From Candidatus Liminaster caballi (GTDB lineage Bacteria; Bacteroidota; Bacteroidia; Bacteroidales; UBA3663): DNA of 64,000 bases. Below are positions 50,801 to 54,950 of this stretch, in pieces. The translations under genes were made by a program, and so were the position numbers. The notes below the pieces were generated by a model. That model did no database searches. It had not been told where the DNA came from and saw only the letters and a program-made list of their open reading frames with translations. The stretch is taken from NCBI GenBank assembly GCA_018065085.1, contig JAGHUA010000001.1, positions 1 through 64,000 on the forward strand, in the 5' to 3' direction. How positions within the stretch are numbered: position 1 is the first letter of the stretch; the number at the start of each line of letters is the position of its first letter.

Positions 50801-50832
50801 TTTGGAGGTTAATCAGCAATGACTTATCTTTG
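50801..50832 (+). promoter_or_regulatory. Promoter of the Phe/Tyr operon
   Basis: TTTG at 50801-50804, exactly 20 bp, then TATCTTTG at 50825-50832. A leader of about 230 nt separates it from the first enzyme gene. Confidence 0.8.
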
Positions 50833-50854
50833 CACCCGAAAAAAAGAAAATGCT

Positions 50855-50920
50855 ATGAGTTTGTACGGCCGATTTTATTATTTCTTTTATTACTTTGCAA
50901 AGGAATGTAAGGTCGGGTAA
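50855..50920 (+). CDS. Phe/Tyr-rich leader peptide of an attenuator
   Basis: A 21-codon frame starting ATG about 20 bp downstream of the promoter. Codons 7-14 read Phe-Tyr-Tyr-Phe-Phe-Tyr-Tyr-Phe, and Tyr also occurs at codon 4. It ends VG-stop, the stop lying immediately after the GGTCGGG antiterminator strand. The operon behind it makes phenylalanine and tyrosine. A run of regulatory codons in a tiny frame, right before a terminator, is the classical arrangement of amino-acid attenuators such as pheL and trpL of enterobacteria. The sequence itself is unlike pheL. Confidence 0.85.
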   Translation: MSLYGRFYYFFYYFAKECKVG

Positions 50921-51016
50921 GCGTGTGCCGCTGAGCAACGAAGACGAAAGGCACAGACAGACAAACTGAGATTAGCACATGAAACCCCGACCATGAGACT
51001 GGCTGGGATTTTTTTT
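50911..51016 (+). promoter_or_regulatory. Transcription attenuator of the Phe/Tyr operon
   Basis: Strand 1, GGTCGGG (50911-50917), is fully complementary to CCCGACC (50986-50992), an antiterminator. The latter can instead pair with GGCTGGG (51001-51007; one wobble, one mismatch), which is followed by eight T residues (51009-51016), a terminator. Only one pairing can form. A ribosome stalled on the Phe/Tyr codons leaves strand 1 free, allowing read-through; one that reaches the stop codon covers strand 1 and lets the terminator form. A third small hairpin (TGTGCC 50924-50929, GGCACA 50950-50955) lies between. Confidence 0.8.
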
Positions 51017-51065
51017 GTACGTAACGAATCATTGCAGACTTGCAACACATATTATAATATATATA

Positions 51066-51920
51066 ATGAGTAAGCTAAGAGTCGCCATTCAGGGCGAAGA
51101 AGGATGCTATCACGAATGGGCTGCGCGCCAGTACTTCGAGGGCGAGGACGTTGAGGTTGTTCCATGCCTTACGTTCCAGTCGGAGTTTGAGGCGATGGCT
51201 GCCGACCCGTCGCTCCTCGGCATCATGGCCATCGAGAATACCATCGCAGGCAATATCCTGCAGAACCATGAGCTGCTCCGCACCTCGCAGCGCAGCATTG
51301 CCGGTGAACATCGCGTGCATATCAGTCACGTGCTCTGTGCCTTGCCCGGCCAGACGCTCGCCGACATCACCGAAGTCAACTCCCACCCTATCGCCCTGCT
51401 CCAGTGTGAGGAATTTCTCCACTCCCAGCTTCCTGACGCCAAGGTGGTGGAGATGGACGATACGGCAGGCTCGGCAAAGATCATCCGCGACCAGCATCTG
51501 ATGGGCCATGCTGCCATCTGCTCGGAATATGCTGCCAAGCTCTACGGCCTCGACATTCTGGCTCGCGCCATCGAGACCAACAAACGCAACTTCACCCGCT
51601 TCCTCATCCTCGAAGACAAGTTCGTCGCCGCCGAGAAGCGCCGCCATGATGTCAACAAGGCCAGCATCGACTTCTGCGTGCGCCACACACAGGGCAGCCT
51701 TACGAAAGTGCTCACCATCCTGTCGTTCTACGGCATGAACCTCACCAAGATACAGTCTATGCCGATCATCGGACGTGAGTGGGAATATCGTTTCTATGTC
51801 GATCTGACGTTCGATGACTATCTGACCTATCGCAAGGCCATCGACGCTATCATGCCGTTTGCCACCGACTTCCAGATTCTTGGCGAATATAAGGAAAAAA
51901 CTGAAATTATTGAGAAATGA
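51066..51920 (+). CDS. pheA: Prephenate dehydratase
   Basis: Converts prephenate to phenylpyruvate, the committed step to phenylalanine. The 284-residue cytosolic protein starts MSKLRVAIQGEEGCYHEWAA and has the periplasmic-binding-like catalytic lobes with IENTIAGNI and TRFLILED. From about residue 200 comes an ACT regulatory domain (TQGSLTKVLTILSFYGMNLTKIQSMP split by position) that should bind phenylalanine. There is no chorismate mutase domain; that activity is fused to DAHP synthase two genes on. A longer in-frame start at 51015 falls inside the attenuator T-run and is rejected. It overlaps the next gene by 4 bp. Confidence 0.95.
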   Translation: MSKLRVAIQGEEGCYHEWAARQYFEGEDVEVVPCLTFQSEFEAMAADPSLLGIMAIENTIAGNILQNHELLRTSQRSIAGEHRVHISHVLCALPGQTLADITEVNSHPIALLQCEEFLHSQLPDAKVVEMDDTAGSAKIIRDQHLMGHAAICSEYAAKLYGLDILARAIETNKRNFTRFLILEDKFVAAEKRRHDVNKASIDFCVRHTQGSLTKVLTILSFYGMNLTKIQSMPIIGREWEYRFYVDLTFDDYLTYRKAIDAIMPFATDFQILGEYKEKTEIIEK

Positions 51921-53089
51921 AAACCATACAGCCGGCTGACCGTATCAGCCATGTCGAGGAATATTACTTCAGTCGCAAACTGAAGGAAGTGGCACGAATG
52001 AATCAGGACGGTGGCATCCCTGTCATCAGTCTTGGCATCGGCGGCCCTGACTTCATCCCGTCAGACCTTACCATCCAGGCATTGATCGACGATGTCAGGC
52101 GCTCGGACGCTCACAGCTACCAGAGCTATGTAGGTCTGCCTGAGTTGCGCAAGGCTTGGGGCCAGTTCTATAAGCGATGGTATGATGTCGATCTCGATCC
52201 GCAGACCGAGATGCTGCCTCTCATCGGTTCGAAGGAAGGCATCATGCACGTGTCGATGGCATTCCTCAATCCTGGCGATAAGGTTCTCGTGCCTGATCCC
52301 GGCTATCCGACCTACACGTCGGTCAGCAAGCTGGTAGGCGCTGAGATTATCAAGTACGACCTTACCTACGAGAACAACTGGGAACCTGACTTCGATGCCC
52401 TCGAACGTATCCCCGGCCTTGACGATGTGAAGCTGATGTGGGTCAACTATCCGCACATGCCTACCGGACACAAGGCTTCGACCCAGCTCCTTGAGCGCAT
52501 TGTCGATTTCGGTCGCCGCCATCAGATTGTCATCATCAACGACAACCCATATTCGTTCATCCTCAACGACAACCCGCTGTCCATCCTTCAGGTGCCGGGT
52601 GCCAAGGACATCTGCCTTGAGTTCAACTCTATGTCCAAGAGTCACTCGATGGCCGGCTGGCGTCAGGGCATCGTCTGCGGCAATGCGGAGTTTATCAGCT
52701 GGATACTGCGCGTCAAGAGCAATGTCGATTCGGGCATGTTCCGTCCGATGATGAAGGCTGCCATCGCTGCCCTCAACAATCCCGAGGAGTATTATTCTCG
52801 CCAAAACGATGCCTACCGCGAACGTCGCGTCGTGGCCGAACAGATCATGACCCAGCTGGGCTGTGAGTTCGATCCGTCGCAAAGCGGTCTCTTCCTTTGG
52901 GGTCGTATTCCGGAATCGGCTCCTGACTGCGAGTCGATCACCGAGCCTGTTCTCCATCAAGCCCGTGTCTTCATCACTCCCGGCTTTATCTTCGGCAAGA
53001 ACGGCGAACGCTTCATCCGCATAAGCCTTTGCGCACCGGCAGAAAAAATGGAAACAGCTTTACAAAGAATTAAAAATCTAAATAAATAA
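51917..53089 (+). CDS. Aromatic/aspartate-type aminotransferase (fold I)
   Basis: A 390-residue PLP enzyme of class I/II. Seen: ISLGIGGPDFIPSD, LIGSKEGIMHVSMAF, VPDPGYPTYTS, the NYPHMPTG segment, NDNPYSFI, and the cofactor lysine in NSMSKSHSMAGWRQG. Between prephenate dehydratase and DAHP synthase genes, its role is most likely the transamination of phenylpyruvate and hydroxyphenylpyruvate to Phe and Tyr (inference from position). An LL-diaminopimelate or aspartate aminotransferase role cannot be excluded. The start overlaps the previous stop (ATGA). Confidence 0.9.
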   Translation: MKTIQPADRISHVEEYYFSRKLKEVARMNQDGGIPVISLGIGGPDFIPSDLTIQALIDDVRRSDAHSYQSYVGLPELRKAWGQFYKRWYDVDLDPQTEMLPLIGSKEGIMHVSMAFLNPGDKVLVPDPGYPTYTSVSKLVGAEIIKYDLTYENNWEPDFDALERIPGLDDVKLMWVNYPHMPTGHKASTQLLERIVDFGRRHQIVIINDNPYSFILNDNPLSILQVPGAKDICLEFNSMSKSHSMAGWRQGIVCGNAEFISWILRVKSNVDSGMFRPMMKAAIAALNNPEEYYSRQNDAYRERRVVAEQIMTQLGCEFDPSQSGLFLWGRIPESAPDCESITEPVLHQARVFITPGFIFGKNGERFIRISLCAPAEKMETALQRIKNLNK

Positions 53090-53092
53090 AAT

Positions 53093-54163
53093 ATGGAAAT
53101 GACATTCGAGCCACTGCTTCCGCAGATGGACAACAAGCGCCCAATGGTGATAGCAGGACCTTGCAGCGCAGAGAGTGAGGAACAGGTGTTGACCACAGGC
53201 CGCGCACTTGCCGCCAAAGGTTTCAAGATCTTCCGTGCCGGAATCTGGAAGCCGCGCACCAAGCCAGGCGGATTCGAAGGCGTCGGCGTGATCGGTCTGC
53301 CATGGCTCCAGAAGCTCAAGGAAGAGACCGGCATGCTCACAGCAGTCGAGGTTGCCACCAAGGCACACGTCGAGGCTGCACTTGCCTTTGGCGTCGATAT
53401 TCTCTGGATCGGAGCACGCACCACAGCCAACCCATTCGCCATGCAGGAGATTGCCGACACACTCCGCGGCCATGACGTACCTGTATTGATCAAGAATCCG
53501 GTCAATCCGGACGTTGAACTCTGGATCGGCGGCATCGAACGTATCTACGGTGCAGGCATCCATCGCATCGGTGTCATTCATCGCGGTTTCTCATCGGCCG
53601 ACAAGACCATCTACCGTAACGTCCCACAGTGGCACATCGCCATCGAGCTGCGCCGCCGTTTCCCTAACCTCCCGATCTTCTGCGATCCTTCGCACATCGG
53701 CGGTCGTCGCGACCTCGTGAAGCCTCTGTGCCAGCAGGCTATGGATCTCGGTTTCGACGGTCTCATCGTCGAGAGCCATTGCAACCCGGACGCAGCATGG
53801 AGCGATGCCAAGCAGCAGGTTACGCCTGATGTCCTTGACGAGATCATCAGCAACCTCGTCATCCGCGACACCGTTCAGACCACCGAGGACCTCGTTGACC
53901 TCCGTCAGCAGATCGACGAGATCGACAATAAGATCCTTGAGATCCTTGCCAAGCGTATGCGCGTCAGCCGCGAGATTGCACAGTATAAACTCGAACATGC
54001 GATGCCTGTCCTTCAGGCCGGCCGTTATGACGAAATCCTCAACAAGCGTTCTGAGCAGGGCGTTGCGTTCGGCATGAGTTCGGAGTTTGTCAAGGAGGTG
54101 TTCGAGGCTATCCACGGCGAGTCTGTGCGCACACAGATGCAGCATATTAATAAATGGAGCTGA
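53093..54163 (+). CDS. DAHP synthase fused to chorismate mutase
   Basis: A bifunctional 356-residue enzyme. The N-terminal part (about 1-260) is a KDO8P-like DAHP synthase (MVIAGPCSAESEEQV, FRAGIWKPRTKPGGFEGVG, PVLIKNPVNPD, FCDPSHIGGRRD). It condenses phosphoenolpyruvate and erythrose-4-phosphate at the entry of the shikimate pathway. The C-terminal 90 residues are an AroQ chorismate mutase (LVDLRQQIDEIDNKILEILAKRM, REIAQYKLEHAMPV). The fusion couples the first and the branch-point steps and is known from other Bacteroidota; the mutase domain often provides feedback control. It starts 3 bp after the aminotransferase stop. Confidence 0.95.
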   Translation: MEMTFEPLLPQMDNKRPMVIAGPCSAESEEQVLTTGRALAAKGFKIFRAGIWKPRTKPGGFEGVGVIGLPWLQKLKEETGMLTAVEVATKAHVEAALAFGVDILWIGARTTANPFAMQEIADTLRGHDVPVLIKNPVNPDVELWIGGIERIYGAGIHRIGVIHRGFSSADKTIYRNVPQWHIAIELRRRFPNLPIFCDPSHIGGRRDLVKPLCQQAMDLGFDGLIVESHCNPDAAWSDAKQQVTPDVLDEIISNLVIRDTVQTTEDLVDLRQQIDEIDNKILEILAKRMRVSREIAQYKLEHAMPVLQAGRYDEILNKRSEQGVAFGMSSEFVKEVFEAIHGESVRTQMQHINKWS

Positions 54164-54164
54164 T

Positions 54165-54950
54165 ATGAAGATTGTAATTTTAGGCAGTGGAAAGATGGGC
54201 ATGTTCATGGCCGACACGCTGTGCATGGATCATGATGTGGCGCTTTATGCCCGTCACGCCGAGAAACTCCGTTACTGTCTGAACACACGCCGATTCACAT
54301 CCTATGATGAGATTCGCGAGTTCGATCCGGATCTGGTCATCAACGCCGTAACCATCAAGAATACGCTCAATGTGTTCAACGAGGTGCTGCCATATCTCAA
54401 CAAGAAGTGCATGCTTTCTGACATAGCATCGGTCAAGACCGGTCTGCCTGAGTTCTATGCAGCTTCGGGACATCCGTTCGTCTCGACCCACCCGATGTTC
54501 GGTCCTACGTTTGCCAACCTCAATGACCTGAGCCACAACTACTGCATCATCATCAAGGAGTCCGATCCGTTCGGCAAGGCTTTCTTCCGCGAGGTATATG
54601 CTGCCCTGAAGCTCAACATATACGACTATACGTTCGAGGAGCATGACGAGACCATCGCCTACTCGCTCTCCATTCCGTTTGTTTCCACATTGGCATTCAC
54701 CGGCGTGATGAAGCCGCAGGACGCTCCTGGCACGACGTTCAAGAAGCACATGGCCATTGCACGCGGCCTTCTCAGCGAGGACGATTATCTCCTCACCGAG
54801 ATCCTGTTCAATCCGAACTCCCCGAAGCAGATCGACCTCATCGTCGATAAGCTCAAGGAGCTATCTGAGATCATACGCGAACACGATACAGACAGGTTGC
54901 TGAACTACATCAACCAGAGTCGCGAAAACATAAAAGGTCAGGCACTTTAA
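54165..54950 (+). CDS. tyrA: Prephenate dehydrogenase
   Basis: NAD-dependent step to hydroxyphenylpyruvate for tyrosine, 261 residues. The Rossmann motif is MKIVILGSGKMGMF. Further on are NAVTIKNTLNVFNEVLP, DIASVKTGLPEF, the STHPMFGPTFANL segment with the catalytic-type His, and a helical dimer domain. There is no ACT domain. The start at 54165, 1 bp after the previous stop, gives the dinucleotide-binding N-terminus; an in-frame ATG at 54087 would lie inside the mutase gene. With it, the operon encodes both branches from prephenate, which matches a leader peptide rich in both Phe and Tyr. Confidence 0.93.
   Translation: MKIVILGSGKMGMFMADTLCMDHDVALYARHAEKLRYCLNTRRFTSYDEIREFDPDLVINAVTIKNTLNVFNEVLPYLNKKCMLSDIASVKTGLPEFYAASGHPFVSTHPMFGPTFANLNDLSHNYCIIIKESDPFGKAFFREVYAALKLNIYDYTFEEHDETIAYSLSIPFVSTLAFTGVMKPQDAPGTTFKKHMAIARGLLSEDDYLLTEILFNPNSPKQIDLIVDKLKELSEIIREHDTDRLLNYINQSRENIKGQAL

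Follow-up and report, generated by a model that had tools for sequence, protein, structure and literature searches.

The window, by which we mean the whole 64,000-nt stretch analysed here, comes from a fragmented genome assembly (90 contigs) and carries a four-gene operon on its forward strand. The first gene, pheA (51066–51920), encodes a prephenate dehydratase (NCBIfam prephenate dehydratase, E 3e-56). A check of gene content identified the following genes, all on the same strand, as an aminotransferase overlapping the pheA stop (51917–53089), a DAHP synthase-chorismate mutase fusion (53093–54163) and prephenate dehydrogenase (tyrA, 54168–54950). Judged by this content, the products of the operon are both Phe and Tyr, in agreement with the original prediction, which had placed prephenate dehydratase first in an operon making the two amino acids. 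The gene upstream of the pheA leader, a class II fructose-bisphosphate aldolase, is divergent, and a terminator in the leader can therefore serve no upstream gene.

The leader begins with a Bacteroidota-type promoter (50801–50832, forward strand, as are all leader features) composed of TTTG (50801–50804), a 20 nt gap and TATCTTTG (50825–50832). Downstream lies a leader peptide ORF of 21 codons (50855–50920) that runs from ATG to TAA, encodes MSLYGRFYYFFYYFAKECKVG and is kept as an aromatic ORF in relatives. Its codons 7–14 (50873–50896), the putative control codons, are eight consecutive Phe/Tyr codons in the order F Y Y F F Y Y F. Within the ORF, strand s0 (CCGATTTTAT, 50869–50878) pairs with 50907–50916 in the minimum-free-energy fold and is taken as the protector. 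The latter segment belongs to strand s1 (GTAAGGTCGGG, 50907–50917), the 5' half of the antiterminator, which ends in GGTCGGG (50911–50917) directly adjoining the leader stop codon (50918–50920). Strand s2 (CCCGACC, 50986–50992) is common to the antiterminator and the terminator. Strand s3 (GGCTGGG, 51001–51007), followed by an A and eight T residues (51009–51016), forms the 3' half of an intrinsic terminator (51001–51016) located between the leader ORF and pheA, and the end of the T-run is separated from the pheA ATG (51066) by 49 nt.

The promoter, the 21-codon ORF with its eight Phe/Tyr codons, GGTCGGG at the stop, CCCGACC and the eight T residues were thus all found in the sequence where the original prediction had put them. 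GGCTGGG, proposed as the alternative partner of CCCGACC, was likewise in its place, but the pairing is imperfect: the stem contains one G-U pair and one A-C mismatch (–8.6 kcal/mol). The window's terminator is for this reason weaker than those of many relatives, in many of which the stem is perfect. A generic promoter and terminator scan of the window detected neither the promoter nor the hairpin. It missed the promoter because it is built on E. coli-type promoters, and the hairpin presumably because of the stem mismatch.

A run of this kind is not expected by chance. When an ATG-start ORF of 8–45 codons with at least eight Phe/Tyr in 10 codons was taken as the unit, none was found in 20,000 dinucleotide shuffles of the leader or in the controls, 2,641 segments 330 nt long that were taken from related loci. 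Even at six or more Phe/Tyr in 10, the leader ORF was unique on both strands of the 64 kb.

Conservation was examined in two samples. Among the 80 nearest pheA orthologues from a species-level collection, 66 had an aromatic leader ORF upstream. Three of the 14 loci without one (L048, L054, L076) have little upstream sequence, and in at least eight (L010, L046, L052, L057, L069, L070, L073, L077) another gene ends there; in two peptides tested this gene was a B12-dependent methionine synthase. The second sample comprised 80 upstream regions; a few of its genomes also occur in the first sample, and the structure tests were run on the set cleared of duplicates. With a criterion of at least five aromatic residues in 10 (background 1.3%, for Phe/Tyr and ATG only), an aromatic leader ORF was present in 57 of 60 Bacteroidales regions, in 12 of 13 from the remainder of the class and in two of seven from other classes. 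At one locus (L171) the leader was present by eye, though the automatic terminator finder had dropped it. Of 136 relatives, 106 had a TAnnTTTG motif in the 50 nt preceding the leader ATG, compared to 3.2% of shuffles. Both Phe and Tyr codons occurred in 134 of the 137 family leaders, and their order varied freely.

The position of the aromatic codons relative to s1 was also confined. The first paired base of s1 followed the last aromatic codon at a median distance of 12 nt (5–95% range, 8–16), counted from the end of that codon. This is roughly the leading edge of a ribosome with that codon in the A site, according to the established footprint. The leader stop fell in the interval from ~6 nt upstream to 25 nt downstream of the s1 start (5–95%), so that a ribosome at the stop would cover all or most of this strand. 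The bases of s1 appear to be kept as RNA. In relatives the RNA corresponding to the C-terminal half of the leader persists while its frame changes or the ORF no longer includes it, and AATGTAAGGTCGG is invariant among congeners, some of which translate it as ECKVG and others as NVRSG. Retention of these bases while they are read in two frames indicates selection on the RNA.

Structure tests were performed on 137 non-redundant leaders with a terminator. Cognate s1:s2 duplexes had a mean energy of –16.9 kcal/mol, compared to –12.1 kcal/mol with permuted partners (20 sd), and s0:s1 duplexes, with s0 taken from the first codons of the ORF, –15.6 compared to –10.9 kcal/mol (19 sd). The corresponding values for control pairings were 1.2 sd for 5'UTR:s1, 0.3 sd for s0:s2 and ~4 sd for reversed strands; loop:s2 and post-terminator:s1 deviated in the opposite direction. 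The residue of ~4 sd probably reflects shared base composition. In a few loci (e.g. L028, L034, L055, L068) the automated search for strands put s1 or the terminator in the wrong place, which adds noise rather than signal.

When 103 leaders were aligned on the GGG core, s1, s2 and s3 co-varied. Two bases upstream of the core, s1:s2 was GC in 32 leaders, AT in 21, TA in 13 and CG in 12, and the dominant s1-s2-s3 triples were G-C-G (23), A-T-A (16), C-G-C (11), T-A-C (7) and T-A-T (6); these counts are not independent events, since the sequences are related. Still, four Watson-Crick types at a single position would be hard to explain by relatedness alone. Covariation supports an antiterminator that excludes the terminator, as in known attenuators, and a protector helix of the kind found in attenuators is present both as s0:s1 in the window's minimum-free-energy fold and in the pairing of relatives. 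The attenuator reading of the original prediction held up in the comparison it had called for, with orthologous leaders across Bacteroidota, where the aromatic ORF and the strands are kept with compensatory changes. Its three-strand logic was correct for s1, s2 and s3 and overlooked the fourth strand, s0, inside the ORF. Because s0 pairs with s1, the layout is that of a classical four-strand attenuator.

To model folding during transcription, RNA was folded up to just before s3 with a ribosome masking 15 nt upstream to 13 nt downstream of its position. In the window, the predicted probability of s1:s2 was 0.29 without a ribosome, 0.997, 0.999 and 0.97 with the ribosome stalled at an early, middle or last aromatic codon, and 0 with the ribosome at the stop. 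The medians over the 137 leaders in the model were 0.61 for free RNA, 0.985, 0.99 and 0.97 for the three stalls, and 0 at the stop. In the window as in the family, the value at the stop is partly built in by the placement of the mask. The antiterminator probability in the stalled state exceeded that at the stop by 0.2 in 121 of 137 leaders. As the no-ribosome median of s1:s2 is still ~0.6, the strength of the protector varies among relatives. Equilibrium folding of the full-length leader with ribosome masks was dropped in favour of this pre-s3 folding, as it preferred the terminator in every ribosome state for most family leaders and left the states unseparated. In the window itself, the full-length equilibrium folding did switch: the terminator had a probability of 0.002 with the ribosome stalled mid-run and 0.88 with it at the stop, but 0.83 when the stall was at the last aromatic codon. 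We assume from the lack of separation in most relatives that the switch is decided kinetically, during transcription.

We believe that the element is, very probably, a four-strand ribosome-mediated attenuator that couples the Phe/Tyr operon to charged tRNA-Phe and tRNA-Tyr. We infer stalling and termination in cells, with Phe and Tyr as the signals. When either Phe or Tyr is short, a ribosome would stall on the Phe/Tyr run and cover s0, leaving s1 free past its leading edge; the free s1 would capture s2 as the antiterminator before s3 is made, and polymerase would read through. When both amino acids are plentiful, the ribosome would reach the stop and cover s1, allowing s2:s3 to form and transcription to terminate at the T-run. 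If the leader is not translated at all, s0:s1 would compete with s1:s2 and favour termination.

A simpler arrangement, in which s1, s2 and s3 act without a protector helix and the ribosome just covers or uncovers s1, would also account for the clear s1:s2 and s2:s3 covariation, and in the model control in the right direction follows from covering or uncovering s1 by itself. We consider it unlikely, as s0:s1 is as specific as s1:s2 (19 sd compared to 20 sd) and is part of the window's minimum-free-energy fold. Some leader-ORF systems are known to use Rho, and stalling in the leader might here expose or hide a Rho entry site or, by translational coupling, the pheA start, with the hairpin secondary. 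The chance of this seems slight to us, given that nearly all relatives have an intrinsic terminator with a T-run after s2 that covaries with s1 and s2.

The ORF could alternatively encode a functional small hydrophobic protein whose position is incidental, and the N-terminal half of the peptide is indeed alike among relatives (RFYAYYFSYFYF-like). However, these conserved 5' codons are explained by s0, and neither the free order of Phe and Tyr nor the shifting frame of the C-terminal half over a retained RNA fits a selected protein; we regard this explanation as highly improbable. For a chance U-rich stretch next to an unrelated terminator we found nothing in favour; it is contradicted by the shuffles, the control segments and conservation across the phylum, and its likelihood is close to nil. 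We therefore retain the four-strand attenuator as the preferred reading.

Ribosome-mediated attenuation is a textbook mechanism, and the enterobacterial pheA attenuator, pheL, is Phe-only. Like the element described here, pheL (Rfam Phe_leader) lies upstream of pheA and combines a leader peptide containing control codons with competing antiterminator and terminator structures; unlike in pheL, Phe and Tyr codons alternate here and the operon serves both branches. Classical four-strand attenuators of trp and his operons share the protector, antiterminator and terminator helices and the use of ribosome position as the switch, but here s1 overlaps the leader stop or sits next to it, and the majority of the control codons are located between s0 and s1. 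Rfam covariance models gave no match at the gathering threshold in the window, none with E up to 5 in the element, and none in the loci of ten relatives. Bacteroid-trp (RF01692; Weinberg et al. 2010, PMC2864571), a candidate cis-regulatory RNA of Bacteroidetes named for trp genes, had no match in the window or the source genome. The attenuator is well supported and belongs to a widespread family that Rfam does not list.

The original prediction also held that such an element had not been described for Bacteroidota, which goes too far in view of Bacteroid-trp and of a 2021 transcriptome study of Flavobacterium psychrophilum (PMC9723704). The available parts of that study give clues to leader-peptide attenuation at amino-acid operons and report, for Flavobacteriaceae, a structured 5' element ahead of pheA that is conserved across genera and lacks an Rfam match. 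This element, in the same phylum and at the same gene as ours, is named there without codons, strands or covariation. Compared by description, it is likely a member of the present family, and several genomes of the same class in our second sample carry the element described here. A transcriptome study of B. thetaiotaomicron (PMC7366714) mentions, in general terms, leader-like short ORFs in long 5'UTRs. In light of these earlier reports and the textbook mechanism, the novelty here extends no further than the description of the family across the phylum, the covariation of its four strands, its mixed specificity for Phe and Tyr and its tandem forms.

On balance, and with some reserve, we favour the broader proposal that the family is ancient, responds to Phe/Tyr and in places Trp, has no Rfam entry, governs pheA operons in most of the class Bacteroidia as well as in parts of other Bacteroidota classes, and was repeatedly doubled to give two complete attenuators in series, which would sharpen the response. 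The covariation makes it very probable that classical ribosome-mediated attenuation controls the synthesis of aromatic amino acids across the phylum, which is dominant in the gut and in which such control is little documented. The family is defined and alignable, ready for a covariance model, and the element would act as a simple two-input sensor of Phe or Tyr shortage that is testable with reporters in Bacteroidales. Within the window's own genome, the regions upstream of hisG (G000:C23), trpE (G000:C59) and ilvD (G000:C66) (L186–L188) showed no evident leader ORF of comparable kind, rich in His, Trp or branched-chain codons at the expected density and accompanied by a terminator, which argues that attenuation is no general habit there; trpE appears internal to an operon.

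Two complete aromatic leader ORFs in series, each with its own terminator, were seen upstream of pheA in about a dozen relatives: L022 (Coprobacter secundus), L104, L105, L112, L113, L131, L157, L160, L163, L175 and L178, with the arrangement probable at L137 and doubtful at L134. Both members of a pair mix Phe and Tyr, so the two amino acids are not divided between them. The single paper title found on tandem attenuators is about Salmonella mgtCBR (PMC3641672). The forms seen here provide a natural way of testing what is gained from a second attenuator. Eleven leaders have a Trp codon in or near the aromatic stretch (L128, L141, L145, L146, L147, L151, L156, L167, L169, L172, L176) and may thereby sense the third aromatic amino acid as well. 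Four records titled Pseudoflavonifractor, Clostridium, Lachnospiraceae and Paenibacillus (L031, L058, L060, L081) contain pheA leaders and genes of the Bacteroidales type, and their titles are for this reason probably wrong. Short direct repeats (cttttgactt; gaagtgaca) were present between the attenuator and pheA at L063, L075 and L086.
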